A stretch of DNA of 51,625 nt from an uncultured Oscillospiraceae bacterium (GTDB taxonomy: Bacteria > Bacillota > Clostridia > Oscillospirales > Oscillospiraceae). Under the pieces are notes generated by a model. That model was not told where the DNA came from and did no database searches. It saw only the letters and a program-made list of their open reading frames with translations. The position numbers and the translations under genes were made by a program. Each line of letters opens with the position of its first letter. The first letter of the stretch is position 1. Below are positions 4,976-26,699 of the stretch, in pieces. The stretch covers positions 1 to 51,625 of the forward strand of contig CALXDC010000014.1 of NCBI GenBank assembly GCA_944386975.1, given 5' to 3'.

Positions 4976-5325
4976 CCATTGAATCCCCCCTCTCAAAACC
5001 TGCCGCGTTTTCTTTTTTTCGGCGGCAACCCTTACTGTCCCCTGTTTTTCGCCGGAGACGCCGCTGCAAAAAAAGGGGACTTTGGTAAGCCAGGCCGTTC
5101 CAGCCGCCTCCGGCGGCGGAAAACTGCCGCCTCTCCCGGCAGCAGCTGCCAGCGGAGGCAGGCTTTGGCAGCAGCTCAATTCGCAGATTGAAACGTCGGC
5201 GTTTCACTCTTCTGTTTCTTTTGGTTCATCTGTTCCGTTTCATGTTTCATCTCCCGCTGGTACGGCTGGAACCTCAATAATTTTGCGGAAAAGCCTCCGC
5301 CAACATCTCCTATTTTTATGTCTTT

Positions 5326-5355
5326 TTGTACAAAAGCTCCGGCGTTTTTTATAAA
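5326..5355 (+). promoter_or_regulatory. Possible sigma-A promoter upstream of a candidate RNA
   Basis: TTGTAC (5326-5331), 18-bp spacer, TATAAA (5350-5355) in an AT-rich stretch. It would start a transcript near 5362 that covers the hairpins listed next. Support is by consensus only. Confidence 0.35.
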
Positions 5356-5361
5356 AAAGTG

Positions 5362-5587
5362 AAAAATTCCGCTGCTCGGAAAAAATATAGCCACCGTTCC
5401 GCCAGCCTGGAACGGAATTTGCTACATGTTGAATTGAGGCGCGTCTGCATGCAGAGCGGAGACGCCCATTCCTTTTTCACAGGATCTGGCGGGGTTCGCT
5501 CCCCCGGCAGATCCCGCGACCTTCTCTCTTATTCCATGCACAGCGGCGGGGCGGACATCGGAATGATGTCCGCCCCGCCGCGTTTTA
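5362..5587 (+). ncRNA. Candidate structured non-coding RNA
   Basis: The gap 4976-5795 contains no convincing gene. Three hairpins occur in tandem: CCGTTCC/GGAACGG (5394-5415), GCGTCT/AGACGC (5441-5465), and a 12-bp stem with one mismatch, GGATCTG plus CGGGG paired with CCCCG plus CAGATCC (5482-5514). A 17-bp terminator follows at 5543. The terminator points to a plus-strand transcript with no open reading frame upstream of it. The predicted length of about 225 nt is in the range of 6S-type or regulatory RNAs, but no known family motif was recognised. Ends are inferred from the promoter-like site and the terminator. Confidence 0.35.
5543..5587 (+). terminator. Strong orphan terminator
   Basis: Perfect 17-bp stem: GCGGCGGGGCGGACATC (5543-5559), 5-nt loop, exact complement (5565-5581), then GTTTT. 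There is no T run on the minus strand, so it serves plus-strand transcription, yet no plus-strand gene precedes it. Confidence 0.75.
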
Positions 5588-5617
5588 CCGGAATTTCGGC
5601 TGCAGAGCCGCCCTTCC

Positions 5618-5680
5618 GGCCTCCCTTTACAAAATCGGGGAACGATCCGCTTTTTGACAGTTCCCCGGTTTTGTAAGGCC
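5618..5680. other. Long hairpin in the leader region of the ftsH operon
   Basis: A 17-bp stem with one G-T wobble joins 5627-5643 and 5660-5676, extended by GGCC/GGCC at 5618-5621 and 5677-5680 with a small bulge. It lies 116 bp before the first gene of the ftsH operon. It could be a regulatory leader structure or a small mobile palindrome; no T run follows. Confidence 0.45.
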
Positions 5681-5795
5681 AGAAATCCAAATCTGGAAGT
5701 GGCATATAGAATGTTTCCCTGATATAACTATCACAGAAGGTAGAAAAACCAGCGATAATGCCGCGGATTTGGCAAGAAAGAAGGGATTGTTCTGC

Positions 5796-6242
5796 ATGAA
5801 CGCGCAACAGCAGCTCTTTATGGGCAAGCTCCAGGAGATGGAGCGGCAGTACCGCAAAACAACGGACCGGATCGGCGTCTGCGGACAAGGGGATCCCGCC
5901 AAGGTCCGGCAGGAGCTGCAGAAGGCCAGGGAGGAATACCGCCGCAGCGGCCTGCAGCTGCGGCAGCGCATCGAAGAGAGCCGCTCCCCGGCGGTGGCGG
6001 AGCTGGCAAAGGCCCAGCTGGAGAGCAACCGAAAAATGGAACGCCTGCTGGAAAACGGACAGCTCACACGCTTTCTGCATTCGGAGGAAAACAGTGGTCT
6101 GGAGGACCGGGTGGAGGCGGCCGCCCTGTATGCCGAGTACGCCGTGGACTTTGCCGTCCAGGCAATGCAGTACGCGCTGATCGCGGCGCTGTCTGCCATT
6201 GACCTGCAAGAAAACACGGAGGAAGAAACGGAGGTTTTTTAA
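5796..6242 (+). CDS. Unrecognised helical protein preceding FtsH
   Basis: 148 residues, not recognised. It is almost entirely charged helix: long stretches rich in Gln, Glu, Arg and Leu (about 5-95) suggest coiled coil, followed by a more hydrophobic Ala-rich helix near 105-135. No signal peptide or enzyme motif is visible. ATG 5796 follows AAGAAGGG with about 10 nt spacing; a TTG 27 bp upstream is a weaker alternative. The stop codon abuts the ftsH start with no gap, so the two are very probably translationally coupled. A role as FtsH adaptor or partner is only a guess from position. Confidence 0.75.
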   Translation: MNAQQQLFMGKLQEMERQYRKTTDRIGVCGQGDPAKVRQELQKAREEYRRSGLQLRQRIEESRSPAVAELAKAQLESNRKMERLLENGQLTRFLHSEENSGLEDRVEAAALYAEYAVDFAVQAMQYALIAALSAIDLQENTEEETEVF

Positions 6243-11635: not shown

Positions 11636-11664
11636 TTTACAATCGCCATTTCCTTTGATAAAAT
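11636..11664 (+). promoter_or_regulatory. Probable sigma-A promoter of the partner-switching operon
   Basis: TTTACA (11636-11641), exactly 17 bp, TAAAAT (11659-11664), within AT-rich sequence that stands out from the GC-rich surroundings. The expected start near 11671 gives a leader of about 130 nt before the LuxR-type gene. The rest of the gap 11441-11802 shows no gene. Confidence 0.6.
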
Positions 11665-11734: not shown

Positions 11735-11771
11735 ATCCCTGGCGTCGCAGGCGTGACGCCAGGGATTTTCC
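11735..11771 (+). terminator. Leader hairpin, possible attenuator
   Basis: Perfect 11-bp stem ATCCCTGGCGT (11735-11745) / ACGCCAGGGAT (11756-11766), followed by TTTCC. It lies between the promoter and the LuxR-type start. The short T run makes it a weak terminator or attenuator. Confidence 0.5.
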
Positions 11772-11802: not shown

Positions 11803-14154
11803 ATGGAACAAGCGGTCATCCTCAAGCCGTCGTTGGTCGAGCAGTTTGAGGCAGCTATGGCCCGGGGGCGGGTGACGCTGTTCAGCGCTCCCTGCGGCTT
11901 CGGCAAGACCACCACCGCCCGGGGTCTCACCGAGGGCGGCAAGGTTTGCTTTCTCTCCGCCGACCAGCCCGGCTTCGCCCTGCCGTCCCGGAGGGACGGC
12001 TGGACCACCCTGGTGGTGGATGACCTCCAGTATCTCACCCAGGAGGAGGACCAGGACGCCCTGTGCAACCTGATCCGTGAAAATCCCCGGCGGCGCTTTC
12101 TGCTGCTGACCCGGGGAGAACTGCCCAGCTATCTGGCCCCCTTTCAGATTGCCGGAGTGCTGACGGTGCTGGGCCCCTGGGATCTGGCCTTTGACCGGGA
12201 GAGCACCGGGCGGCTGCTCCAGGCCTTTGGGGCGGAGGTGTCTGACCGGCAGCTCACCGCCATTCAGGAGGAGACCCGGGGCTGCCCTCTGGCAGCGGCC
12301 CTGTTGGGGCAGCGGCTGGCCCGGGGAGAGAGCTACAATTCCTCCACCTCCGACCAGGTCCGCCGGGACCTGTTCCTCTATTTTGAGGAGGCGGTGCTGC
12401 GGCGGCTGGACCTGCCGCTCCAGCGCCTTCTGCTGGAGCTGGCCCCCTTTGAGACTTTTACCCCAGAGCTGGGACGAATGGTCAGCGGCAGCAGCCGGGC
12501 GGGCGAGCTGCTGGGGCGGCTCCAGCGAGAGACCTCCGCTCTGCTCCAGGAGCGGCTGGACACCTACCGTTTCTGGCCCATTTTCCGCCGTTTCCTCCTC
12601 TGGGAGCTGGAACAGACCTATAGTGAGGACCAGCGCCGGGCTCTGTTTCATCGGGGCGGATTGTACTACGAGCTCAACGAGGACTACCGGAGGGCCCTGG
12701 CGTGCTACTCCCGGAGCGGCGCCATGGATAAGGTGTCGGAGCTGCTGACCAAAAATGCGGAGCTCCACCCGGGCATGGGGCACTACGACGAGATGGAGCC
12801 CTACTATCGTGCCCTTCCGGAGAAGGAGATTCTCTCCTCCCCGGCCCTGATGCAGGCCATGAGCATGCTGTGCGCCATCTGTATGGACTACGAGGGCTCT
12901 GAGAAGTGGTATCAGGCCCTGCGGGACTTTGCCGAGGGCCGGCGGCGGACCGATGCGGCGGCCCGGGAGGCCCGGGGGCGGCTGGCCTGGCTGGACCTGG
13001 CCCTGCCCCAGCGCACCGCGGAGAGCATGCCCGACACCTTTTCCAAGGTCTTTCAGCTCCTCACCCGGCGGGAGATCCGCCTGCCTCCCTTCTCTGTTAC
13101 CAGCGCCCTGCCCAGCCTTATGAACGGCGGCAAGGACTTCTCCCCCTGGAGCAAAAAAGACGACCTTCTCTACGCCACCCTCCGCCTTGCGGTGGAGACG
13201 GTACTGGGTCGGGACGGGGTATGTCTGGCCGACTGCGCCATTGCCGAGAGTAAATATGAAAAGGGAGAAAACGTGAAGGACCGGGTTCTCTCCCTCATGT
13301 CCAACCTGGAGCGGATCCGCCGCAGCGGCACCCCGGACATCGAGTTCGCCGTGGTAGGCCTTTTGGCCCGGACCCAGGTGGACGCGGGCCGGGCCGCCGA
13401 TGCCCGGCTGACTCTCACCACCCTGCGGGACCGCTTCACCGCTGCCGGGGAGACCCGGTTTCTCCCCAATCTGGACGCCATGCTCTGCCGGGTGGATCTG
13501 CGGCTGGGGGACGACGCTGCCGTGGACCGGTGGTACCGGGAGAAGGCTCCCCGGGACCCCCAGCGGCTCAGGGTGATGAAACGCTACCAATATCTGACCC
13601 AGGCCATGGCGGAGCTGGCTTTGGGGGAGGAGGAGGCCACCCTTCTGACCCTGGCTCCCCTGATTCCTTACTGCCAGGCCTGCCGCCGGTATCTGGACGG
13701 CATCCACCTGGGCATTCTTTCCGCCATCGCCCGATTTCGTCTGGGGGAGGACCAGTGGCGGCAGGACTGGACAAAGTCCCTGGAGACGGCGGAATCCTTC
13801 CGCTTCCTTCGCCCCATCTCCCAGTACGGCGCTGCGGCCCTGCCCCTGCTGGAGGCCTGTCCCCCCACCGGGGACGGGACCTTCGCCAAAGCCCTCTCCG
13901 CCGCTCTCCGGAATCAGGCGGCCTGCTACCCCGACTTCCTCCGCCCCCGGCGGGAGATGCGGGGTCCCCTGTCCCCGGCGGAGCTGCAGGTGCTGCGGCT
14001 CATCTGCGCCGACAAGAGCAATGCGGAGATCAGCAGCCTGCTGGGCATCAAGGTGGCCACGGTAAAGGTCCATGTGAGCCATATATTACAGAAGCTGAAC
14101 GTCCAGCGCCGCAGCGAGGCCAAATCCGCCGCCCAGCGCCTGCGCCTGGTGTGA
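11803..14154 (+). CDS. MalT-like LuxR-family transcriptional regulator (STAND ATPase)
   Basis: 783 residues. The N-terminus holds a nucleotide site: P-loop APCGFGKTT at 29-37 and Walker B-like LVVDDLQ. The middle (about 280-690) is helical and repeat-like (TPR/MalT type). The C-terminal ~70 residues are a LuxR/GerE helix-turn-helix (LSPAELQVLRLICADKSNAEI, then VKVHVSHILQKL). Such proteins switch on genes when a small inducer and ATP bind. It is the first gene of an eleven-gene run and is a candidate activator of it. Start ATG has AGGAGGG ahead. The inducer cannot be read from sequence. Confidence 0.9.
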   Translation: MEQAVILKPSLVEQFEAAMARGRVTLFSAPCGFGKTTTARGLTEGGKVCFLSADQPGFALPSRRDGWTTLVVDDLQYLTQEEDQDALCNLIRENPRRRFLLLTRGELPSYLAPFQIAGVLTVLGPWDLAFDRESTGRLLQAFGAEVSDRQLTAIQEETRGCPLAAALLGQRLARGESYNSSTSDQVRRDLFLYFEEAVLRRLDLPLQRLLLELAPFETFTPELGRMVSGSSRAGELLGRLQRETSALLQERLDTYRFWPIFRRFLLWELEQTYSEDQRRALFHRGGLYYELNEDYRRALACYSRSGAMDKVSELLTKNAELHPGMGHYDEMEPYYRALPEKEILSSPALMQAMSMLCAICMDYEGSEKWYQALRDFAEGRRRTDAAAREARGRLAWLDLALPQRTAESMPDTFSKVFQLLTRREIRLPPFSVTSALPSLMNGGKDFSPWSKKDDLLYATLRLAVETVLGRDGVCLADCAIAESKYEKGENVKDRVLSLMSNLERIRRSGTPDIEFAVVGLLARTQVDAGRAADARLTLTTLRDRFTAAGETRFLPNLDAMLCRVDLRLGDDAAVDRWYREKAPRDPQRLRVMKRYQYLTQAMAELALGEEEATLLTLAPLIPYCQACRRYLDGIHLGILSAIARFRLGEDQWRQDWTKSLETAESFRFLRPISQYGAAALPLLEACPPTGDGTFAKALSAALRNQAACYPDFLRPRREMRGPLSPAELQVLRLICADKSNAEISSLLGIKVATVKVHVSHILQKLNVQRRSEAKSAAQRLRLV

Positions 14155-14176
14155 CAAACCCGAAAGAGGAACGGAT

Positions 14177-14587
14177 ATGAAAGAACTGACCATCGAAGCC
14201 ACACTGGAAAATATCGACGCCGTCACCGATTTTGTCAACAGGGAGCTGAAGGTTCTCCGCTGCCCGGCGTGGATCCAATACCAGATCGACGCGGCCATCG
14301 ACGAGCTTTTCAGCAACATCGCCCGGTATGCCTACCACCCTGCCACCGGCCCCGCCACCGTCCAGGTGGAGGTCACCGGATCACCTATGGCGGTGGTAGT
14401 CACCTTTATGGACCACGGCGTCCCCTACGATCCGCTGACCCGGGAGGACCCGGCCTTAGGTCTCCCCCTGGAAGAGCGGGAGGAGGGGGGCCTCGGCATC
14501 TTCCTGGTAAAAAAGACCATGGATGATGTGTCCTACGAGTACCGGGACGGCCGGAACATCCTGCGGATCAAAAAGCAGATCGGATGA
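14177..14587 (+). CDS. RsbW-like anti-sigma / GHKL Ser-Thr kinase (stand-alone)
   Basis: 136 residues, a single HATPase_c_2 domain. The ATP-site boxes are intact: N-box DELFSNIARYAY (Glu and Asn in canonical spacing), G1 FMDHGVPYDPL and G2 GGLGIFLVKKTMD. RsbW/SpoIIAB proteins bind a sigma factor or a STAS antagonist and phosphorylate the STAS serine. Two STAS proteins are encoded just downstream and are the obvious substrates. No sigma factor gene is nearby, so the final target is unknown. It lies 22 bp after the LuxR-type gene. Confidence 0.92.
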   Translation: MKELTIEATLENIDAVTDFVNRELKVLRCPAWIQYQIDAAIDELFSNIARYAYHPATGPATVQVEVTGSPMAVVVTFMDHGVPYDPLTREDPALGLPLEEREEGGLGIFLVKKTMDDVSYEYRDGRNILRIKKQIG

Positions 14588-14600
14588 GGGAGGAGAGACC

Positions 14601-15185
14601 ATGGACCTTTTGACCAGGGCCATCCAGTTTGCCGCCGCGGCCCACGACGGGGAACGGCGGAAGGGGGACGGCAGTCCCGCGGTGCTCCACGCCATGGAGG
14701 CGGCGGCCATTGCCGCCACCCTCACCGACGATGAGGAGGTGCTGGCCGCCGCCGTGCTCCACGACACGGTGGAGGACGCCGGAGTGAAACCGGAGGAGCT
14801 CCTCTCCCGGTTCGGCCCCCGGGTGGCCGCTCTGGTGGCGGCGGAGACGGAGAACAAGCGGCGGGAGCTGCCCCCCGGCGACACCTGGCGGGTGCGCAAG
14901 GAGGAAACCATCGCCCGGCTGCGGACGGAGGAGGACCCGGGAGCCGCCATTCTCGTGCTGGGGGACAAGCTCTCCAACCTTCGCTCCCTCTCCCGGGCCT
15001 GCCGGCAGAAGGGGAAGGCGGTGTGGCTGGATTTCCATCAGCACGACCCTGCCCAGCACCGCTGGTACTACGCCGCCATCGCCGCCGTGCTGGCCCCCCG
15101 GCTGGGGGACACGCCGGCCTTTGCAGAATATCAGCAGCGGTTTGCGGAGGTTTTCGGAACCCCGGACCGCTGGGAAGAGGAATAA
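14601..15185 (+). CDS. HD-domain (p)ppGpp hydrolase-like protein
   Basis: 194 residues from ATG 14601 behind GGGAGGAGAG. It matches the hydrolase half of RelA/SpoT proteins: His30, the HD pair His54-Asp55 in VLHDTVEDAG, and Asp122 in LGDKLSNLRSL, the manganese-binding set. There is no synthetase, TGS or ACT domain, so it resembles a small alarmone hydrolase. Alarmone breakdown would tie the operon to amino-acid starvation, in line with the amino-acid ABC importer and CstA in the same operon (inference). Other nucleotide pyrophosphates are possible substrates. Confidence 0.85.
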   Translation: MDLLTRAIQFAAAAHDGERRKGDGSPAVLHAMEAAAIAATLTDDEEVLAAAVLHDTVEDAGVKPEELLSRFGPRVAALVAAETENKRRELPPGDTWRVRKEETIARLRTEEDPGAAILVLGDKLSNLRSLSRACRQKGKAVWLDFHQHDPAQHRWYYAAIAAVLAPRLGDTPAFAEYQQRFAEVFGTPDRWEEE

Positions 15186-15201
15186 GAAGGAGGACCCCAC
15201 T

Positions 15202-16371
15202 ATGGAAGCAATTTTGGAACACGGCGCCCTGACCGTGGCTCTCACCGGCCACATTGACTCCTCCAACGCCCCCGCTGCGGAGGCGGAGCTCATGGCCATC
15301 CGGGACCGGGAGCCCCACGAGGCCATGGTGCTGGATCTCAAGGACCTCACCTATATCTCCAGCGCCGGGCTGCGGATCGTGCTGCGCCTTCGAAAGCTGG
15401 AGCCGGAGCTGAAGCTGGTGAACGCCTCGGCGGAGGTGTACGAGATTCTGGACATGACCGGCTTTACGGAGATGATGCCGGTGGAGAAGGCCTACCGCAC
15501 CATCTCCATCGAGGGCTGCGAGGTCATTGGCCGGGGGGCCAACGGCACCGTCTACCGCATCGACCAGGACACGGTGGTGAAGGTCTACCGCAGCCAGGAC
15601 TGCCTGCCCGACGTGCAGCGGGAGCGGGAGCTGGCCCGGAAGGCCTTCGTCCTGGGCATCCCCACCGCCATCCCCTACGACGTGGTCCGGGTGGGAGACA
15701 GCTTTGGCTCTGTCTTCGAGCTGCTCAACTCCCGCTCCTTCTCCAAGCTCATTGCCGCAAACCCCCAGGACATGGACCACTATGTGGGCCTCTATGTGGA
15801 TCTGATGCAGAAGATCCACGCCACCCATGTGAAGGAGGGGGACCTCCCCAGCATCCGGAGCTTTGCCGACAGCTGCGTCCTCTATGCCAAAAAGGAGCTG
15901 CCGGAGGCCCTGGGGGCCAAGGTGGAGGCCATGGTAAACGCCATCCCCGACACGGACACCATGCTCCACGGGGATTTCCACACCAACAACATCGTCATGC
16001 AGAACGACGAAGTACTGATCCTCGACATGGACACCCTGTGCGTTGGCCATCCCATCTTCGAGCTGGGGTCCATGTACATGGCCTTCGTAGGCTTCGGAGA
16101 GCTGGATCCCACGGTGCCGGAGGCCTTTTTGAAGCTGCCTTATGCCGTCACCACCAGCATCTGGGAGAAAACGCTGCTGCGATACGCCAGCGGGGACGAG
16201 GCCCTGGCGGCGCGAACCGGGGACCGGGCCAGGATCATCTGCTACCTGCGGCTGCTGCGCCGCTCCCTGCGCCGTGGCGGCCGGGACAACCCGGAGAGCC
16301 GGGCCTGGATTGAGCTGTGCCTTACCCGGCTGACGGAGCTTCTCCCCCGGGTGGACGCCCTGTACGAGTGA
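15202..16371 (+). CDS. STAS domain fused to an APH-type phosphotransferase
   Basis: 389 residues from ATG 15202 (site AAGGAGGA). Residues 1-100 are a STAS anti-sigma antagonist domain with YISSAGLR; Ser54 aligns with SpoIIAA Ser58. Residues ~110-389 form an aminoglycoside-phosphotransferase/kinase fold: a Gly-rich loop (GRGANGTVYRI), a lysine in VVKVYR, the catalytic MLHGDFHTNNIV and metal-binding LILDMDT. It resembles TIGR02172-like proteins, with a STAS domain in front. The switch domain and an unrelated kinase share one chain, so the STAS phosphorylation state may control phosphorylation of a small molecule or protein (inference). Substrate unknown. Confidence 0.88.
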   Translation: MEAILEHGALTVALTGHIDSSNAPAAEAELMAIRDREPHEAMVLDLKDLTYISSAGLRIVLRLRKLEPELKLVNASAEVYEILDMTGFTEMMPVEKAYRTISIEGCEVIGRGANGTVYRIDQDTVVKVYRSQDCLPDVQRERELARKAFVLGIPTAIPYDVVRVGDSFGSVFELLNSRSFSKLIAANPQDMDHYVGLYVDLMQKIHATHVKEGDLPSIRSFADSCVLYAKKELPEALGAKVEAMVNAIPDTDTMLHGDFHTNNIVMQNDEVLILDMDTLCVGHPIFELGSMYMAFVGFGELDPTVPEAFLKLPYAVTTSIWEKTLLRYASGDEALAARTGDRARIICYLRLLRRSLRRGGRDNPESRAWIELCLTRLTELLPRVDALYE

Positions 16372-16418
16372 TCGTTTCCCCCTGTTTTCTGATTCTGATA
16401 TTGAAGGAGGTCTTTCCC

Positions 16419-16715
16419 ATGACCATTACCAAAGAGGCGGCGGGAACCGCCCTGACCCTGTCCCTTCAGGGACGACTGGACACCAACACAGCCCCCCAGC
16501 TGGAGGCTGCGCTGAAGGATGCCCTCAGCGGCGTCACCGCCCTGACCCTGGACTTCGAAGGGCTGGAGTATATCTCCTCCGCCGGGCTCCGGGTACTGCT
16601 GTCCGCCCAGAAGGTGATGAAGAAGCAGGGGACCATGGTAATCCGCCATGTGAACCCGACCATCATGGAGGTCTTTGAAGTCACCGGCTTCAGCGATTTT
16701 CTCACCATCGAGTAA
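16419..16715 (+). CDS. STAS-domain anti-sigma factor antagonist (RsbV/SpoIIAA-like)
   Basis: 98 residues, one STAS domain. The phosphorylation loop is GLEYISSAGLRVLL with Ser54 at the SpoIIAA Ser58 position; the N-terminal LTLSLQGRLDTNTAPQL strand-helix is typical. It starts behind GAAGGAGG, 47 bp after the STAS-APH gene, the longest gap in the operon. Likely substrate of the RsbW-like kinase and of the SpoIIE-type phosphatase encoded nearby. Confidence 0.93.
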   Translation: MTITKEAAGTALTLSLQGRLDTNTAPQLEAALKDALSGVTALTLDFEGLEYISSAGLRVLLSAQKVMKKQGTMVIRHVNPTIMEVFEVTGFSDFLTIE

Positions 16716-16718
16716 CCC

Positions 16719-17507
16719 ATGAAGATCGCCTATCTCGGCATCGACCTGCTGCACTGCGCCCTGGATGCGGCGCTGGCAGAGGGCTGCGAAGTCCTCCGCC
16801 TCTTCTCCTGTGAGACGGACAACGTCACCGAGTTCAACACCGCCGTCCTCTCCTCAGCCCGGGACCGAGGCATCCCCGCCACCCTGGCTCCCATCACAAA
16901 GCGCGACCTTGCACAGCTGGCGGCCCAGGGCTGCCAGCTGCTGCTGTGCGGGGGTTACTACCACAAGGCGCCGGTGACGGACCGCTTCCCCATGGTGAAC
17001 ATCCACCCCGCCCCCCTGCCCCGATTCCGGGGCGCCTGGCCCATGCCCCACATGCTGCTGCAGGGCGAGGCGGAGGGGGGCGTGGTGCTGCACAAAATGG
17101 CCCGGGACTTCGACGCCGGGGACATCCTCCTGGATGCCTCCTTCCCCCTCTCCCCCGCCGACACCCTGGCGGACTACATGGCGAAGACGGAGGCGGCGGT
17201 ACCCGGTCTGGTGTCCCGCCTCATCCGGGAGCTGCCCCGGCTTTTGGCGGCCGCCCGGCCCCAGGTGGAGGGAACCTACTGGCCCTGCCCCACGGAGGCG
17301 GACTGGACCGTCACGCCGGAGATGCCGGTGGAGACGGCGGACCGGGTGCTGCGGGCCTTCTACGGCTATGAGTGCGTCTACCGATCCGGCAACCGCCGCT
17401 TCGAGCTCATCGGCGGCCGGGCCCTGCCGGGGGCGGAGAGCCCCTTCCCCGTCCGAGGCGGCGCCATTCTGGCCAAATCCGTAAGGGAGCTGGAACCTTA
17501 TGTCTGA
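16719..17507 (+). CDS. Methionyl-tRNA formyltransferase-like N-formyltransferase
   Basis: 262 residues. The Formyl_trans_N fold is recognisable: the active-site set is Asn94 and His96 in MVNIHPAPLPRFRG and Asp132 in DFDAGDIL, all conserved. The C-terminal ~65 residues resemble the Formyl_trans_C region. At 262 residues it is shorter than Fmt (about 310), and its setting away from def or fmt partners suggests a special substrate such as an amino sugar or amino acid, using 10-formyl-tetrahydrofolate. It begins 3 bp after the STAS stop without an obvious Shine-Dalgarno site and overlaps the next gene by 8 bp, so coupled translation is likely. Confidence 0.8.
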   Translation: MKIAYLGIDLLHCALDAALAEGCEVLRLFSCETDNVTEFNTAVLSSARDRGIPATLAPITKRDLAQLAAQGCQLLLCGGYYHKAPVTDRFPMVNIHPAPLPRFRGAWPMPHMLLQGEAEGGVVLHKMARDFDAGDILLDASFPLSPADTLADYMAKTEAAVPGLVSRLIRELPRLLAAARPQVEGTYWPCPTEADWTVTPEMPVETADRVLRAFYGYECVYRSGNRRFELIGGRALPGAESPFPVRGGAILAKSVRELEPYV

Positions 17508-18354
17508 GATCACCATTGCCCATCGGGACCGAATCGAGGAGATTCGCGCCCGTTATGGCCACGCCCTCTCCGCCCACGCCTTCCCCTCTCTCTACCTGTG
17601 GCGGGAGGCGATGGACCTGCGTCTTTTTCTGGAGGAGGACCTTTTCTCCGTCCGCTGCGCCGGATACGGGGAGAACGCCTGGTTCTTTCCCTGCGGCGGC
17701 GAGGGGGCCAAATCGGCCTTTCTGGAGCGGCGGATGGCGAAGCCGGACCTCATTCTTCTCTACCTCCGGGGAGAGGACGCCGCCTGGCTGGAGGACCGGT
17801 GCCCCGGCCGCTTCGCTCTCCGCCGCCGGTATGACGCCGACGAGTACCTCTACGATCGGGCGGTCCATGTGAACCTGGAGGGGGGGCGGTTCCACCACAT
17901 CCGCCGCCGCCTCCACAAGATCCGCCGGGACCTCTTCCCCCGCACCGCCCCCCTCGGCGACGACACGGCGGAGGACGTGCTGCGGGTGGCCGCCCTGTGG
18001 GCGGAGCAGAACCCCGGCGTGGGCCGGGACGACCGCACCCTGGTAGCGGAGGCCCTTATCCATCGGCGGGAGCTGGGACTCCAGGGGGTGGTGGTGTACC
18101 TCTCCGACCACCCCGCCGCCTTCATGATGGGCTTCCCCCTCACGGAGGACACCTTCGACGCCAATGTGGGCAAGTGCGCCGCCGGGGTCCAGGGCCTCAC
18201 CTACTACACCCTCCGGGAGCTCTTTGCCGCCCTTCCCCCTCATTTCCGCTGGTGCAACCTGGAGGAGGATCTGGGGCTGCCCGGTCTGCGGGACATGAAG
18301 GAGCACTTCCTGCCGGAGAGGAAACATGAGATCTGGGAGGCCCGATGCCTATGA
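17500..18354 (+). CDS. DUF2156 (GNAT-like, LPG-synthase C-terminal type) protein
   Basis: 284 residues. The arrangement fits DUF2156: two GNAT-like halves, with FHHIRRRLHKIRRD in the middle, then VVVYLSDHPAAFMMGFPL and a C-terminal CNLEEDLGLPGLRDMKEHFLP close to the family consensus. The best-known relative is the catalytic domain of phosphatidylglycerol lysyltransferase (MprF), which moves an amino acid from tRNA to lipid. No membrane flippase domain is present, so it would act on a soluble or membrane-surface acceptor. It overlaps both neighbours (8 and 4 bp), so it is made together with the formyltransferase and the MATE fusion. Confidence 0.82.
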   Translation: MSEITIAHRDRIEEIRARYGHALSAHAFPSLYLWREAMDLRLFLEEDLFSVRCAGYGENAWFFPCGGEGAKSAFLERRMAKPDLILLYLRGEDAAWLEDRCPGRFALRRRYDADEYLYDRAVHVNLEGGRFHHIRRRLHKIRRDLFPRTAPLGDDTAEDVLRVAALWAEQNPGVGRDDRTLVAEALIHRRELGLQGVVVYLSDHPAAFMMGFPLTEDTFDANVGKCAAGVQGLTYYTLRELFAALPPHFRWCNLEEDLGLPGLRDMKEHFLPERKHEIWEARCL

Positions 18355-20084
18355 GCCGTGACATTTTTACCGCCAAGATGTTTCGGCGGCTCTTCCTCCC
18401 CTCCCTCTGCGCCAGCTTCGGCCTGGCCCTGTCGGATATGGCCGACGCGTTGGTGGTGGGCCGCAGCATGGGGGCCACGGGCCTTGCCGCCATCGGCATG
18501 ACCCTGCCCCTCTTCATGGTCCTCAACCTCTTCATGCACGGCTTCGGCATCGGCGGCAGCGTCCGCTACGCCCAGCTCATGGGGGCGGGAAAGGAGGCGG
18601 AGGCCCTTCAGAGCTTCCGCCAGGTGCTGGCCGCCGGCATTCTCACCGCCCTTCTCCTGGCGGCGGCGGTGAACCTCTTCCCCGCCGCCGTACTGCGCCT
18701 TCTGGGCGCCGCCGGGGCGGAGGCGGAACTCTACGGCCAGACCATGGCCTACGTCCGCCTCATCGCCGCCGGGGCCCCTCTCTTCTTCCTCAACTACATT
18801 CTCAACTACTACCTCCGCAGCGCTGGGCAGGAGCGGCGGGCGGGGGCAGGCTTCCTGGCGGGCACCTTCACCGACGTGGGACTGAACCTCCTTCTGGTGC
18901 TGGTGCTGGACATGGGCACCACCGGGGCGGCTCTCGCCACCCTGGCGGGGTCGGCGGCGGCGGTGCTGGTGTACCTGCCGGGGCTTCTCTCCAAAAAGGA
19001 AGCCCTCCGCCTGGGGCTCTGCCGCCCGAGCTTCCGGGAGGCCTTCTCCTGTTTTGGCACCGGCTTCTCCTCCTCCGTCCAGTACGGCTATCAGCTGATC
19101 TTCTTCCTCCTGGCCTCCCACACCCTCATGGCCGCCGCCGGGGAGGTAGGGATGGCGGTATTCGACATGGTGCAAAACGCCTCCTACCTCATTTTGTATC
19201 TCTACGACGCCGCCGCCAAGGCTCTGCAGCCCCTGGCAAGCACCTTCCACGGGGAGAAGAACCAGCCGGCGGTCCGGCAGTCCCTCCGCCTGGCCCTTCT
19301 GTGGGGCCTTGGCTGGGGCCTCGCCGCCGCCCTGCTGGTGAGCCTCTTCCCCCAGATGGTCTGCGCCGCCTTCGGCCTTGGGACGGCGGAGGCCGCCCAA
19401 GTGGGGGCCGGAGCCCTGCGGCTCTACTGCCTCTCCAGCGCCTTTGCCGGGGTCAGCGTGCTGCTGGAGGCCTACTACCAGTCGGTGGAGCGGGAGCGGG
19501 AGGCCTTCGTCATCGCTACCCTCCGGGGCTGCGCGGTGCTGCTGCCCGCCGCCGCCCTGCTGGCCCTCCTCCGTCCGGCGGCTCTCTGGTGGGTCTTTCC
19601 CGTGACAGAAATTCTCTCCCTGGGCCTCTTCCTCCTCTGGCGCTTCCTCCGCCCGGCGGCGGAGGGGACCTTCCCCCAGGAGCGGATCCTCCACCGGCTC
19701 ATCCGCAGCCGCACCGAGGACCTGGGGGCCCTGGCCGCCCAGCTGGAGGAATTCTGCGAGAGCTGGGGGGCCTCCCCCCGGCAGCAGTATCTGGTGTGCA
19801 TGGCCGTGGAGGAGATCACCGTGGCCATCATCCAGAACGCCTTCGACCGCATGACCGACGGTTACATCCAAATCACCCTCATCGCCTGCCCCGACGGCGC
19901 CTTCGAGCTCCATCTCCGGGACAACGCCTCCTTCTTCAACCCCTTCTCCCTGGAAACGGAGCGGGCGAAGGAGGACGGCTCCTTCGACATGGACGCCATG
20001 GGGATGCTGGTGGTGAAAAAGCAGGCCAAATCCTTCTTCTACCGGCAGTATCAGGGCTTCAATACCCTGGTGGTCCGGATTTGA
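18351..20084 (+). CDS. MATE-family transporter fused to a degenerate GHKL kinase domain
   Basis: 577 residues from ATG 18351, which overlaps the previous stop as ATGA with GGGAGG 10 nt upstream; ATG 18345 is a close alternative. Residues 1-440 are a MATE multidrug/solute exporter with about 12 membrane helices (opening LFLPSLCASFGLALSDMADALVVG). Residues ~445-577 are an RsbW-like HATPase: AVEEITVAIIQNAF, LRDNASFFNPF and DAMGMLVVKKQ match the N, G1 and G2 boxes. The Asn four residues after the N-box Glu is Ala, so ATP hydrolysis or kinase activity is doubtful. The fusion suggests that STAS proteins dock on and gate the exporter (inference). Confidence 0.88.
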   Translation: MSRDIFTAKMFRRLFLPSLCASFGLALSDMADALVVGRSMGATGLAAIGMTLPLFMVLNLFMHGFGIGGSVRYAQLMGAGKEAEALQSFRQVLAAGILTALLLAAAVNLFPAAVLRLLGAAGAEAELYGQTMAYVRLIAAGAPLFFLNYILNYYLRSAGQERRAGAGFLAGTFTDVGLNLLLVLVLDMGTTGAALATLAGSAAAVLVYLPGLLSKKEALRLGLCRPSFREAFSCFGTGFSSSVQYGYQLIFFLLASHTLMAAAGEVGMAVFDMVQNASYLILYLYDAAAKALQPLASTFHGEKNQPAVRQSLRLALLWGLGWGLAAALLVSLFPQMVCAAFGLGTAEAAQVGAGALRLYCLSSAFAGVSVLLEAYYQSVEREREAFVIATLRGCAVLLPAAALLALLRPAALWWVFPVTEILSLGLFLLWRFLRPAAEGTFPQERILHRLIRSRTEDLGALAAQLEEFCESWGASPRQQYLVCMAVEEITVAIIQNAFDRMTDGYIQITLIACPDGAFELHLRDNASFFNPFSLETERAKEDGSFDMDAMGMLVVKKQAKSFFYRQYQGFNTLVVRI

Positions 20085-20093
20085 GGTGCAAAT

Positions 20094-22184
20094 ATGAAAT
20101 TCTCTCTTCGAACGAAAGTGGTGCTGGCGGTGCTGGTCATGGCCCTGGTGGTGGCCGGGGTCACCGGCCTTGTCAGCTACAATGTCTACTCCCGCTCCAT
20201 GGAGGAGCACTACGCCACCCTCACCACCAACACCGCCAGGTCCGCCGCCTCCATGGTGGACGCCGATGCGGTGGCGAACCTGGCGGAGCGGACGTTGGAG
20301 ATCTACCGGAGCTTCTGCCCCGATGAGACCACTCCCCCGGACTTTGCCGCCTTCACCCAGGCGGACTGGACGGCCTACTACGCCGCCTTTGACGAGATCG
20401 CCCAGGATCCCGCCTTTCAGGAGACCTTCGACACCCTCAGCGCCCTGAAGGAGGACAACGGGGTTTTGTGGATGTACGTGGCCTTCATGGACACCCAGAC
20501 CGGCCAGGGTATCTATATCATCGACGCCGACGCCACCGAGGACGCCTGCCCCCCCGGCACCTGCGGGGACATCGAGCCGGAAAACCTGGCTCTCATGGAG
20601 CAGGGTGTCTACGACTTCCCCCCCTACATCACCAACTACGAGGAGTTCGGCTGGCTGTCCTCCTCCGCCGCGGCCATCACCGATGGGGACGGCCATGTGG
20701 TAGCCCACGCCTTCGTGGACTTCTCCATGAACGAGGTGATGGCAGACCGGGAGGCCTTCCTGCTGCGGCTGGGAGCGGTGCTGGCGGCGGTAACGGTGGT
20801 GCTGATTCTCCTCCTCACCTTTCTCTTCAGCCGGGCGGTAGTGCGGCCCATCAACCTGTTGGCCGCCGCCACCGGCTCCTTCGTCTCCGACAAGCAGAAA
20901 AACGGCGGCGACTCCGCCATTTCTCTTCTCCAGATCAAAACCGGCGACGAGATCGAGAATCTCTCCGCCTCCATCCGCCAGATGGAGCAGGAGATCAACA
21001 CCTACATCGCCGACCTCACCCAGGTCACCGCCGAGCGGGAGCGCATCGGCGCGGAGCTGGACGTGGCCCGGAACATCCAGGCCTCCATGCTCCCCTGCAT
21101 CTTCCCCCCCTTCCCCCAGCGGGAGGAGTTCAGCATCTTCGCCGCCATGGAGCCCGCCAAAGAGGTGGGGGGCGACTTCTACGACTTCTTCCTGGTGGAC
21201 GACGACCACCTGGCCCTGGTGATGGCGGACGTGTCCGGCAAGGGGGTGCCGGCGGCTATGTTCATGGTCATCGCCAAGACCCTTCTGAAAAACTCCGCCC
21301 AGACGGGGCTCTCCCCCAAGGCGGTCTTGGAGAAGGTGAACAACCAGCTGTGCGAGAACAACGACGCGGAGATGTTCGTTACCGTGTGGCTGGGGATTCT
21401 GGAGATCTCCACCGGCAGAATGCTCTGCGCCAACGCGGGCCACGAGTACCCCGCCATTCGCCGCAGCGGCGGGCAGTTCGAGCTCTTCCGGGACAAGCAC
21501 GGCTTTGTCCTGGCGGGGATGGAGAACGCCAAGTACCGGGAGTACGAGCTGAATCTGGCCCCAGGGGACGCCCTCTTCGTCTACACCGACGGCGTGGCCG
21601 AGGCCACCGACGCGCAGAACCAGCTCTACGGCACCGACCGGATGCTCTCCGCCCTCAACCGCAGTCCGGAGGCGGACTGTGAGGGTCTTCTGCGGACCCT
21701 CCGTTCCGATATCGACGCCTTTGTGGGGGACGCCCCCCAGTTTGACGACATCACCATGCTGGCCCTGGAGATGGGGCGGCTGGAGGACCGGATGCACAAG
21801 ATCCGGGTGAAGCCGGAGGCGGAGAGCCTGGAGGCGGCCACCGCCTTCTTCCGGGAGGCCCTCCAGGACCAGAACGCCCCGGAGCGGGTGGTGTCCCAGG
21901 TCTGCGTGGCGGTGGATGAGATCTTCTCCAACATCGTCCGCTATAGCGGAGCCACCGCCGTCACCCTGGGCCGGGAAGCGGGGGAAGGGTTCCTCCGCCT
22001 CCGTTTCTCCGACAATGGACGGCCCTACGATCCCACCCAGGCCCCGGATCCCGACGTGACCCTCCCCCCGGAGGAGCGGGAGATCGGCGGTATGGGCATC
22101 TTCATGGTGAAGAAGATGATGGACCAGATCTCCTATCTCTACGCCGACGGCTTCAACGTGCTCACCCTGGAAAAGCGGTGGTGA
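20094..22184 (+). CDS. Membrane sensor-HAMP-SpoIIE/RsbU phosphatase-GHKL kinase fusion
   Basis: 696 residues. Membrane segment 1 (about 8-28), an outside sensor (30-220) with two cysteines close together (ACPPGTCGD), segment 2 (222-246), a HAMP region (247-300), a helix, a PP2C-type SpoIIE/RsbU phosphatase (about 325-560; metal Asp in [23 protein letters not shown]) and a C-terminal RsbW-like kinase (563-696). That kinase keeps [22 protein letters not shown] and [13 protein letters not shown]. One chain could therefore both dephosphorylate and phosphorylate STAS serines, setting the switch according to an outside signal. The ligand is unknown. It starts 9 bp after the MATE fusion. Confidence 0.93.
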
Positions 22185-22219
22185 GGCCGTCCCAGTCTGC
22201 AACCCAGGAGGATTTTCCC

Positions 22220-24868
22220 ATGCCCCATGTCCCTTCCGCCCCGCCCCGCGCCCTGACGCTGCTGGCCCTGGTGCTGGCGGTCCTCTCCCCCGCCGCCCTG
22301 GCCGCCGGGGAGACGGACTTTTCCCTCAACGACCCCGCCGTCACCATTGCCGTACCGGTGGGGGCCGTGCCGGAGACCGCCGCCAAGGCGGCCTACCCCG
22401 ACGCCCAGTTTATCTACATCAACAGCGCCTCCGACGGCTTTCTGGCCGTCCAGACCGGCAAGGCCGACGCCTTCGCCGTGGAGCGCACCACCTATGACAG
22501 CGCCGTGGCCTCCGGCCTGGAGGGCCTGACCCTCCACAGCGACGGAGCCGTAGGAGAGCCGGGACTGGTGGCGGTGGGCATCAGCCCACTGACGGAGATT
22601 CCCGACGCCAAGGGGAAGATCGACGCCTTTCTCAGTGAGATGGAGGAGGAGGGGGGCCTCTCGGAGATGGAGGACCGGTGGCTCACCGGCCACGACTACA
22701 CCATGCCGGACATCCCCCAGGCGGAGGCCCCGGACTTCTCCATGACCGTGGGCACCTCCGGCCTGGCGGAGCCCTACACCTTTTACCAGGACAACACCGT
22801 CACCGGCTTCGACGTGGAGCTGATGCGCCGCTTCGCCCTGTGGTGCAACGCCTCGGTGACCTTCGAGCTCTACGACTGGAACGGCCTCACCGCCTCCTGT
22901 GTGTCGGGAAAGACGGACTACATCGCCGCCGACCTCTTCGTCACCCCGGAGAAGCAGGAGGTTATCGGCTTCTCCCAGCCCTACACCCAGGTGGAGACCG
23001 TGATAGTGGTGGCCGCGGAGGGCGGCGGGGGCGGTTTCTGGTCCGGGCTCTCCGACAGCTTTGAGCGGACCTTCCTCCGAGAAAACCGGTGGCAGCTGAT
23101 CCTCAGCGGCCTGCTGGTCACCGTGGAAATCACCCTTCTGGCGGCCCTGGCGGGCACAGCCCTGGGCTTTGGACTCTACCTCCTGCTCGCCTGCCCCCTC
23201 CGGCTTGTGCGCCTCCTCCTCCGGGGCTTCTGCTCTCTCCTCCAGGGCCTTCCCAGCCTGGTGGTACTGATGATCCTCTACTTTCTGGTCTTCGCCTCGT
23301 CGGACATCCGCCCGGTGCTGGTGGGCGTCATCGCCTTCTCCCTTCTCTTCGCCGTCACCGTCTCCCAGCTGCTCACCAGCGGCGTCCGGGCGGTGGACGG
23401 CGGCCAGTGGGAGGCGGCGGCGGCCCTGGGCTTTGGACGGGCCGGAGCCTTTCTCCACGTGATCTTGCCCCAGGCTCTCCGCCACGCCATGCCCCTCTAC
23501 AAAGGGGAGCTCTCCGCCATGCTGAAGCTCACCTCCATCGTGGGCTATATCTCCATCGAGGATCTCACCAAGGCGGGGGACATTATCCGCAGCCGCACCT
23601 ATGAGGCCTTCTTCCCCCTGCTGGCCACCGCCGTCCTCTACTTCGCCCTCTCCGCCCTTCTGATCTGGGGGGTGGGGCGGCTGGAGCGGGCCATGGACCC
23701 CCGTCGGCGGCGGACGCCCCGGTTCGCGGCGGAGCCCTGCCCGGATGGGGAACTCCCCTCTTTTGCGCCCGGAGAGGCCGGAGAGGTCCTCATCCGGGCG
23801 GAGCATCTGCAAAAAGCCTACCCCGACGCCACCCCTCTGAAGGACGTAAACGCAGAAATTCGCCGGGGGGAGGTCATCACCATCATCGGGCCATCGGGCA
23901 CCGGCAAATCCACCTTTCTCCGCTGCCTCAACGGCCTGGAGACCCCCACCGGCGGCACGGTCACCGTGCTGGGCCGGTCCCTGGGGGCAAAGGGAACCGA
24001 CCTGAGAGCCCTGCGGCGGCGGGTGGGCATGGTGTTCCAGTCCTTCCACCTCTTCCCCCACCTGACGGTGATCGAAAACGTGATGCTGGCCCCGGTGCTG
24101 CTGCGGAAGGTGCCCCGGCAGGAGGCCTACCGGCAGGGCATGGCCCTGCTTCGGATGGTGGGTATGGGGGAACGGGGACTCCGCTTCCCCGACGAACTCT
24201 CCGGCGGCCAGCGGCAGCGGGTGGCCATCGCCCGGGCCCTGGCCATGGAGCCGGAGGCCATTCTCTTCGACGAGCCCACCAGCGCCCTGGACCCCGCCAT
24301 GGTGGGGGAGGTGCTGGCCGTCATGCGGCGGCTGGCCGCCCGTGGGCTCACCATGGTGATCGTCACCCATGAGATGAAGTTCGCCAGGGACGTGTCCACC
24401 CGGGTGTTCTACATGGACCGGGGCGAGGTCTACGAGGAGGGGCCGCCGGAGCAGATTTTCGACGACCCCCGCCGGCGGCGTACCCGCGCCTTCGTCCAGC
24501 GGCTGAAGGTGCTCCACTTCACCATCACCTCCCCCAGCTACGACTTTATCGCCATGACAGAGTCCCTCCGCCGCTTCGGAGAGCAGCACCAGCTGTCCCA
24601 GCGGCAGACCGACAGCCTCTGCCGGACCTTCGAGGAAATCTGCGCCGCCAACATCATCCCCCGCAGCCCGGTGGACTACCGTCTCCAGGTGTTCACCGAG
24701 TACGCCGGGGAGACGGACGCCCTTACCATGGACTTTGTCTGGGGCGGCCCGCCCTTCGACCCGCTGATGGAGGGGGACCCCCTCTCCCTCCGGCTGGTAC
24801 GGGGTTTTTCCAAGGCGTGCCGCTACACATATGCCGACGGCGAAAACCGCCTGAAGGTACTGCTTTAA
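22220..24868 (+). CDS. One-chain amino-acid ABC importer (permuted binding domain, permease, ATPase) with GHKL-like tail
   Basis: 882 residues from ATG 22220 (site CAGGAGGA). Signal peptide 1-29. Residues 38-157 match the second half of an SBP_bac_3 binding protein and 172-266 match the first half ([31 protein letters not shown]), so the order is swapped. The permease spans 290-490, with the EAA loop at about 398-420. The ATPase spans 524-760: Walker [10 protein letters not shown] (557-565), LSGGQRQR and [10 protein letters not shown]. The last ~120 residues resemble an RsbW fold ([18 protein letters not shown]) but lack the N-box Asn, the G1 Asp and the G2 glycines. Likely a polar amino acid importer controlled through STAS partners (inference). 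Confidence 0.9.
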
Positions 24869-24873
24869 ACAAG

Positions 24874-24898
24874 GCGCGGGAACGCCCGCGCAAGGAGG
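24874..24898 (+). promoter_or_regulatory. Hairpin abutting the cstA ribosome binding site
   Basis: GCGCGGG (24874-24880) / CCCGCGC (24885-24891) with loop AACG ends directly before AAGGAGG (24892-24898). It may protect or tune the cstA translation start relative to the upstream fusion gene. Confidence 0.45.
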
Positions 24899-24908
24899 TT
24901 CCTTTTTT

Positions 24909-26651
24909 ATGAACGGTCTTTTGATCCTGCTCATCGCCATCATCGTGCTGCTGGCGGCCTATCTGCTCTACGGCCGCTATCTGGCCAGAACCTGGGGTGT
25001 CGACCCCAACGCCAAGACCCCGGCCTACGAGCTGCAGGACGGGGTGGACTATGTCCCCGCCGATACCAACGTGGTATTCGGCCACCAGTTCGCCTCCATC
25101 GCCGGAGCCGCCGCCATCAACGGGCCCATTCAGGCGTCGGTGTTCGGCTGGGTGCCGGTGCTGTTGTGGATTCTGCTGGGCGGCGTGTTCTTCGGCGCGG
25201 TCCAGGACTTCGCCTCCATGTACGCCTCGGTGAAGAACAAGGGCCGTACCATCGGCTACATCATCGAGACCTACATCGGCAAAACGGGGAAGAAGCTGTT
25301 CCTTCTCTTCTGCTGGCTCTTCTCCATTCTGGTGGTAGCCGCCTTCGTGGACATCGTGGCCGGCACCTTCAACGGCTACCAGATTGCCGCCGGCGGCGCT
25401 GCGGTCCCCGTCCCCGCCAACGGCTCTGTGGCCACCACGTCCCTGATTTTCATTGTGGAGGCGGTGGCCCTTGGGTGCCTGCTCCGCTTCGGCAGGCTGA
25501 ATAAGTGGACCAACACCGCCATCGCCCTGGTGATGCTGGTGTGCGCCATCGCCCTGGGCCTCCGCTTTCCTCTGTACATCGGGCTGAACAGCTGGCACCT
25601 GCTGATCTTCCTCTACGTGCTCATCGCCTCGGTGGCCCCCATCTGGGCCCTGCTGCAGCCCCGGGACTATCTGAACAGCTACCTCCTCATCGCCATGATC
25701 GCGGCGGCGGTGATCGGCGTCCTGGCCGCCCGGCCCCCGGTGAACCTGCCCGCCTTCTCCGGCTTCGCCGTCGGGGGCCAGACCCTCTTTCCCTTCCTCT
25801 TCGTCACCATCGCCTGCGGCGCGGTGTCCGGCTTCCACTCCCTGGTGTCCTCGGGCACCGCCTCCAAGCAGATCAGAAATGAGCGGAGCATGCTGCCGGT
25901 GTCCTTCGGGGCCATGCTGATGGAGTCCATGCTGGCGGTGATCGCCCTCATCGCCGTGGCCTCCTTCGCCTCCTCCGCGGAGACCGCCGCCCTGGGCTAC
26001 ACCACCCCCACCCAGATCTTTGCCGGCGGCGTCACCAACTTTCTGACGGTGCTGGGCCTGCCCCGGGACGTGGTGTTCACCCTCATCAACCTGTCGGTGT
26101 CCGCCTTCGCCCTCACCTCCCTGGACTCTGTGGCCCGGGTGGGCCGTCTCTCCTTCCAGGAGCTCTTCCTGGACGAGTCTATCCGGGATGAGGACATCGG
26201 CCCCATCCGGCGGCTGCTCACCAACAAGTACTTCGCCACCATTCTCACCCTGGTGCTGGCCTACTTCCTCACCCAGGTGGGCTACGACTCCATCTGGCCC
26301 CTCTTCGGCGCCTCCAACCAGCTCCTCTCCGCCCTGGCCTTCCTGGCCTGCGCGGTGTTCCTCAAGCGCACCAAGCGCCGCAGCTTCATGCTGTGGGTGC
26401 CCCTGTTCACCATGGCGGCGGTGACCTTCTCCGCCCTGGCCATCACCATCGGAAAGCTGGCCCGGGGCATTGCCGACGGAACCTACCGGTGGGTCTCCGG
26501 CATGACGGTGACGGTGGATGGAGCCAGCGTGCTCACCGCCTGGGGGGCCGGGGTTCAGCTGGTGTTCGCCGTTTTGATCCTGGCCCTGGGCGTGGTGGTG
26601 GTGCTCCAGGGCGTCCGCAAGCTGCTGGAAAAAACTCCCGCCTCCCTGTAA
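24909..26651 (+). CDS. cstA: CstA carbon starvation protein (pyruvate/peptide transporter)
   Basis: 580 residues with many membrane helices. CstA hallmarks are TNVVFGHQFASIAGAAAINGP near residue 55, GGVFFGAVQDFASMYAS near 95 and the C-terminal GASNQLLSALAFL block. CstA/BtsT proteins import pyruvate, and CstA is also linked to peptide use during carbon starvation in enterobacteria. It is shorter than E. coli CstA (about 700), as usual for Firmicutes. AAGGAGG sits 9 nt before the start. It follows the ABC fusion by 40 bp and is the last gene before a terminator, so it belongs to the nutrient/partner-switching operon. Confidence 0.93.
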   Translation: MNGLLILLIAIIVLLAAYLLYGRYLARTWGVDPNAKTPAYELQDGVDYVPADTNVVFGHQFASIAGAAAINGPIQASVFGWVPVLLWILLGGVFFGAVQDFASMYASVKNKGRTIGYIIETYIGKTGKKLFLLFCWLFSILVVAAFVDIVAGTFNGYQIAAGGAAVPVPANGSVATTSLIFIVEAVALGCLLRFGRLNKWTNTAIALVMLVCAIALGLRFPLYIGLNSWHLLIFLYVLIASVAPIWALLQPRDYLNSYLLIAMIAAAVIGVLAARPPVNLPAFSGFAVGGQTLFPFLFVTIACGAVSGFHSLVSSGTASKQIRNERSMLPVSFGAMLMESMLAVIALIAVASFASSAETAALGYTTPTQIFAGGVTNFLTVLGLPRDVVFTLINLSVSAFALTSLDSVARVGRLSFQELFLDESIRDEDIGPIRRLLTNKYFATILTLVLAYFLTQVGYDSIWPLFGASNQLLSALAFLACAVFLKRTKRRSFMLWVPLFTMAAVTFSALAITIGKLARGIADGTYRWVSGMTVTVDGASVLTAWGAGVQLVFAVLILALGVVVVLQGVRKLLEKTPASL

Positions 26652-26656
26652 AAAAA

Positions 26657-26699
26657 CTGCGGAGCGCCGTCCTTAAGACAGCGCTCCGCAGCTTTTTCA
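26657..26699. terminator. Bidirectional terminator after cstA
   Basis: Perfect 11-bp stem CTGCGGAGCGC (26657-26667) / GCGCTCCGCAG (26681-26691), CTTTTTC on the plus side and a run of seven T on the minus side. It ends the long operon and the convergent HAD gene. Confidence 0.88.

Follow-up and report, generated by a model that had tools for sequence, protein, structure and literature searches.

What does a partner-switching module control when no sigma factor gene stands beside it? Partner switching has mostly been described as a means of releasing sigma factors, and the question is raised by an eleven-gene operon on contig CALXDC010000014.1 (assembly GCA_944386975.1; C14 below), the 51,625 nt of which make up the window analyzed here. 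The source is an uncultured Oscillospiraceae bacterium that has relatives living in the gut. With Pfam and NCBIfam applied to the eleven genes, we find a SpoIIE phosphatase, a stand-alone RsbW-like GHKL kinase and two STAS domains encoded together with a MATE exporter and an amino-acid ABC importer that carry GHKL or GHKL-like domains of their own, and these transporter-borne domains lack the full set of kinase motifs. We give about an even chance to the reading of the operon as a partner-switching circuit that works independently of sigma factors and controls transporters; kinase-dead GHKL domains would in it be STAS docking sites that gate transport. An earlier note on this DNA had already listed the RsbW-like kinase, the two STAS proteins, SpoIIE, an alarmone hydrolase-like protein (HD_4 in Pfam) and CstA, all of which are found by Pfam. 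Its description of the layout is likewise confirmed on the open reading frames (ORFs): eleven genes occupy 11803–26651, all on the plus strand, with gaps of at most 47 bp (starts being taken at 14601, 15202, 16419 and 22220, the first Met of the translated frames) and with overlaps between the formyltransferase-like (FMT) and LPG_synthase_C-like (LPG) genes and between the LPG and MATE genes.

The GHKL domains of the MATE exporter and of the SpoIIE protein are direct Pfam matches, and the GHKL-like tail of the ABC importer is too degenerate to give a Pfam match at E 0.01. Compared by hhalign with a canonical GHKL profile, the MATE domain scores 99.4%, the ABC tail 97.9% (E 4e-13) and the N-terminal part of SDF-family dicarboxylate symporters 96.4%, against 0.1–0.4% for the STAS, HD_4 and LPG controls. 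The model of the ABC tail has its strands and helices in the same order as the GHKL domain of the SpoIIE model, its lid region being shorter; in a structure comparison of the ABC-GHKL model the matches were filled by the ATPase, and the GHKL-like part was barely covered. The claim of the earlier note that GHKL domains sit on both transporters thus holds, for MATE by Pfam and for the importer by hhalign and the predicted strand and helix order. A GHKL-like domain is therefore found on three unrelated transporter folds, MATE, amino-acid ABC and SDF, the identity of the last being taken from Pfam. Dicarboxylate symporters with such an N-terminal domain occur in the switch-holding loci L048, L051, L059 (two), L096, L104 and L164:13084–14687 (two frames). 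A family of 210-aa neighbor proteins is a weak further candidate, at 66% against GHKL (10 members, of which those of L051 and L096 seemed not to be related and did not enter the profile).

To see how these domains are distributed, the SpoIIE-GHKL protein was used as query against 150 genomes of the family (E 1e-20) and 345 of the order (E 1e-80), giving matches in 40 and 75 genomes, respectively; the same-genus genome G086 had no match at E 1e-20. A first set of 100 stretches was drawn mostly from the top of the ranked lists (in batches of 40 and 60), and 99 of them were annotated, L082 being left out for its overlap with L058. A second set, of 74 loci, came from scanning separately with an alignment of MATE-GHKL proteins. 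The two sets overlap (L045/L214, L046/L220, L089/L159, L108/L194 and L120/L179, for example, and L090/L124 within the first set), so that counts over both are not independent. After two fragments and rows with at most 90 aligned columns were dropped, the motif alignment held 255 rows, which dereplication at 70% within each class reduced to 166.

In this dereplicated alignment the full kinase motif set, defined as the N-box Glu and Asn, the D-box Asp and Gly and the GG lid motif, is present in 87/87 SpoIIE-fused, stand-alone and APH-fused GHKL domains and in 0/78 transporter-fused ones; the single row classed as "other" also lacks it. The N-box Asn, counted in the kinase classes with identical rows removed, is found in 66/66 SpoIIE-fused, 9/9 APH-fused and 50/55 stand-alone domains, the five without it being three alignment gaps and two fragments of transporter genes. 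In the transporter classes, counted in the same way, it is found in 8/94 MATE-fused (2 gaps), 2/17 ABC-fused and 0/7 SDF-fused domains (1 gap). This motif split between transporter-fused and kinase-type GHKL domains is new in this analysis. Since they lack the kinase motifs, the transporter-borne domains look like docking domains rather than kinases acting on STAS. The partner-switching reading of the earlier note is refined accordingly: the set of switch proteins stands, and the GHKL domains on transporters become motif-less, docking-like parts of it.

The arrangement recurs in relatives, as the earlier note had asked. Locus L160 (Ca. Pullichristensenella) holds genes 2–11 of the operon in the same order, including MATE-GHKL, the SBP-permease-ATPase-GHKL chain and CstA, and L153, L154, L156 and L212 match this order without the ABC gene, with a LuxR-like gene upstream in L212. 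The record titles of the 74 MATE-GHKL loci include Flavonifractor, Oscillibacter, Butyrivibrio, Hungatella, Coprococcus and Anaerocolumna. Among these loci the directon of the MATE-GHKL gene contains SpoIIE in 68, STAS in 35 and, in 44, a canonical GHKL that is either free or fused to SpoIIE; within 8 kb lie SpoIIE in 70, FMT in 52, LPG in 45, CstA in 8 and HD_4 in 6. Several Butyrivibrio loci have a unit reduced to FMT, LPG, MATE-GHKL and SpoIIE.

The second serine of the YISSAG motif is kept in 145/145 STAS rows (112 single-domain, 29 APH-fused and 4 other; not dereplicated). By our own count it is Ser54 in both STAS domains of the window, and we take it to be the phosphoacceptor, as in SpoIIAA and RsbV. 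Because the kinases and phosphatase appear intact, this serine is conserved and the transporter GHKL domains are inactive, we infer that STAS proteins, depending on their phosphorylation, dock on the transporters and gate them, and the phosphorylation, the direction of signaling and the signal belong to the same inference. Judging from their intact motifs, two proteins would together set the phosphorylation of STAS at the conserved serine: the stand-alone GHKL kinase and, in the membrane, the SpoIIE-GHKL protein. The GHKL domains of the MATE and ABC proteins, having lost the kinase motifs, would act as receivers, most likely for STAS in its unphosphorylated form, whose docking would open or close the transporter. 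The APH kinase, the HD_4 hydrolase, the FMT and LPG proteins and CstA may represent a linked metabolic module. An enzyme under comparable, STAS-like control is SiaD, which SiaC binds and activates (PMC8457831), and this serves as a precedent. Somewhat more tentatively, and a little short of even confidence, we extend the proposal to the Clostridia, where kinase-dead GHKL domains may be a general plug-in STAS receiver on MATE exporters, amino-acid ABC importers and dicarboxylate symporters, placing transport directly under a serine-phosphorylation switch. For surface sensing, which the earlier note had suggested, we found no evidence.

Several observations weigh against this proposal. The 87/87 group was collected with the canonical profile, and outside it 6/75 SpoIIE tails of at least 100 residues (5 distinct) are degenerate. 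The GHKL domain tree has only 2 changes between transporter and kinase types and 5 in the state of the Asn, so that the motif losses amount to few events. Only 37/74 MATE-GHKL loci have a STAS gene within 8 kb (20/40 where the flanks are complete); for a stand-alone GHKL gene the count is 26/74 (18/40). In five genomes chosen for the apparent lack of a STAS gene next to the cluster, STAS was present elsewhere in 5/5 and a GHKL domain in a short frame (137–206 aa) in only 4/5; one of these four, that of L213, also has a stand-alone GHKL within the cluster. Complementarity between SpoIIE-fused and stand-alone GHKL, which we had expected and which would have supported interchangeable kinases, was sought in 39 loci and not found (Fisher p 0.50). 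With SigA as the only query no sigma genes were found; a wider search, to which C24-region and ECF queries were added, gave ECF-like genes in 8/173 loci (L120 and L179 being the same contig), and some may have been missed because the ECF profile was grown from one seed. One of them, at L158:7446–8000, lies 51 bp upstream of STAS, and that of L120 lies within the directon of the cluster. As a separate observation, the degenerate SpoIIE tails belong to L058, L095, L108 (= L194), L181 and L189, usually beside a second SpoIIE.

The same anatomy would also fit transporters that serve as sensors: depending on the transport state, their kinase-dead GHKL domains would bind STAS or let it go, and the output would then pass through the stand-alone kinase with its partners. 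Sensory roles of transporters are known, and yet we consider this unlikely, as a dedicated membrane protein, the one with the SpoIIE phosphatase, is already part of the operon and the reduced Butyrivibrio units have no obvious local output gene. We place still less weight on ordinary sigma control, in which the RsbW-like kinase would hold a sigma factor whose gene lies elsewhere, with the GHKL domains of the transporters as no more than extra STAS sinks. The genome has 24 Sigma70_r2 matches, and the ECF-like genes of L158 and L120 count on the same side. However, none of the 24 is on C14, in line with the statement of the earlier note that the operon has no sigma factor gene. The GHKL, STAS and sigma genes that lie together on contig C24, read as SpoIIAA/AB/SigF, are read together with another SpoIIE on C96 as the sporulation set, separate from the operon, and none of the 8 ECF-like genes comes within 4 kb of SpoIIE. 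Because the operon opens with a LuxR/MalT-like regulator, a transcriptional output through this protein or a distant regulator, with the transporter GHKL domains as structural dimerisation parts, has also to be considered, and it appears quite improbable. A LuxR-like gene was detected within 8 kb in 6/74 loci, with a profile that drew no relatives beyond the window protein and may have missed some, and it stands between MATE-GHKL and SpoIIE in L184, L185, L190 and L206; such a gene is nevertheless present in few loci only, and the recurrence of the GHKL-like domain on three transporter folds would be left unexplained. A chance cluster is ruled out, because the gene order is conserved in relatives.

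The proposed circuit for direct control of transporters can be set beside several known systems. With SigB and SigF switching (RsbU/RsbV/RsbW and SpoIIE/SpoIIAA/SpoIIAB) the operon shares the SpoIIE phosphatase, STAS domains with the serine and a GHKL kinase with intact motifs, whereas it has no cognate sigma gene and its motif-less GHKL domains are fused to transporters. With SiaABCD of Pseudomonas aeruginosa it shares the membrane HAMP-PP2C type of phosphatase, although the HAMP match is weak here. The output of SiaABCD is a diguanylate cyclase, while that of the operon would be GHKL-tagged transporters; no GGDEF (diguanylate cyclase) domain is among the Pfam matches of the eleven genes, and SiaC is phosphorylated at Thr68 whereas the operon STAS domains keep Ser. 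The model of the SpoIIE-GHKL protein is close to Rv1364c RsbU-RsbW and to SiaA-PP2C, in a comparison that covered mainly residues 329–564; Rv1364c of Mycobacterium tuberculosis is considered here from its structure title alone (RsbU-RsbW). In MlaFEB the STAS protein MlaB sits on the ABC ATPase MlaF, and MlaF is not known to have a GHKL domain nor MlaB to be phosphorylated; Mla entries came up in the structure comparison of the ABC-GHKL model as ABC matches only. SypE/SypA of Vibrio fischeri pairs a dual serine kinase/phosphatase with a STAS protein of unknown target, and the available parts of the two sources mention no transporter fusions (PMC8256260, PMC10120452). CapK/CapS joins a kinase and a transcriptional repressor, with expression of immune operons reported as output, and the terms GHKL and STAS are frequent in the accessible portion of its source (PMC13373217). 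No description of GHKL-fused transporters was found in the literature, as judged from search listings that held few subscription papers and did not cover preprints, nor was any such fusion found in the accessible portions of PMC9540692 and PMC4822843.

Table 1. Features of the operon and its borders in the window.
Feature	Position	Strand	Basis or remark
Promoter-like site TTTACA-17-TAAAAT, TG-extended, 10 of 12	11636..11664	+	consensus scan
14-pair hairpin in leader, then weak T-run	11735..11766	+	between promoter-like site and gene 1
LuxR/MalT-like regulator	11803..14154	+	Pfam GerE helix-turn-helix; TPR_MalT just below cut-off
Stand-alone RsbW-like GHKL kinase, motifs intact	14177..14587	+	PF13581 7.5e-22
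HD_4 hydrolase, resembles RelA/SpoT hydrolase part	14601..15185	+	PF13328 4.4e-22
STAS domain fused to APH-type kinase	15202..16371	+	resembles TIGR02172, below cut-off
Stand-alone STAS protein with conserved Ser (Ser54)	16419..16715	+	Pfam
Formyltransferase-like protein (Formyl_trans_N)	16719..17507	+	PF00551 3.8e-14
LPG_synthase_C transferase-like protein	17500..18354	+	PF09924 8e-24
MATE exporter with C-terminal GHKL (19704-20078), without N-box Asn and GG lid motif	18345..20084	+	
SpoIIE phosphatase with membrane sensor, weak HAMP and intact C-terminal GHKL (21813-22175)	20094..22184	+	
Amino-acid ABC importer in one chain (SBP_3, permease, ATPase); degenerate GHKL-like domain at its C-terminus (about 24512-24859)	22220..24868	+	
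CstA-family transporter	24909..26651	+	PF02554 6.3e-141
Terminator hairpin with T-run	26657..26697	+	-29 kcal/mol, z -6.8

The borders proposed for the operon in the earlier note fare differently. Support is good for the terminator at about 26657, while the promoter is only promoter-like, since the consensus scan gave 4 such sites against 1.7 expected by chance and the site at 11636 ties with one on the minus strand. The leader hairpin, on which the earlier note is silent, is a possible attenuator; at the gathering threshold Rfam matches nothing in the window, leader RNA included. The LuxR/MalT-like protein reaches 107.6 bits with the NCBIfam MalT model, far below the cut-off of 537. In the SpoIIE-GHKL protein the membrane part was called from hydrophobic stretches, and the sensor part has no Pfam match at E 0.01; from the strand order in the model, a Cache-like fold would be our guess. 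Directly upstream of the operon, on the opposite strand, lies a gene for a collagen-like triple-helix repeat protein (PF01391; 9989–11440, minus strand). The GHKL gene of the window comes directly after the LuxR-like gene, unlike that of L212, which is preceded by a PreA-like dihydropyrimidine dehydrogenase gene (4261–5805, over the NCBIfam cut-off); in L160 an ORF with a similar start (4182–5693) also stands before the GHKL gene. NHLP bacteriocin export genes, with two ABC subunits over the NCBIfam cut-off, adjoin the switch at L045:10881–15708, and ABC pairs of similar size, judged by size alone, recur beside it in other loci. The translation of L178:6077–6777 has regular repeats resembling a CRISPR array.

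If the transporter-borne GHKL domains are indeed receivers, a partner switch would act directly on transporters, and inactive GHKL domains would gain a function. The loci of Flavonifractor, Oscillibacter, Butyrivibrio and Hungatella would then hold a testable signaling system.

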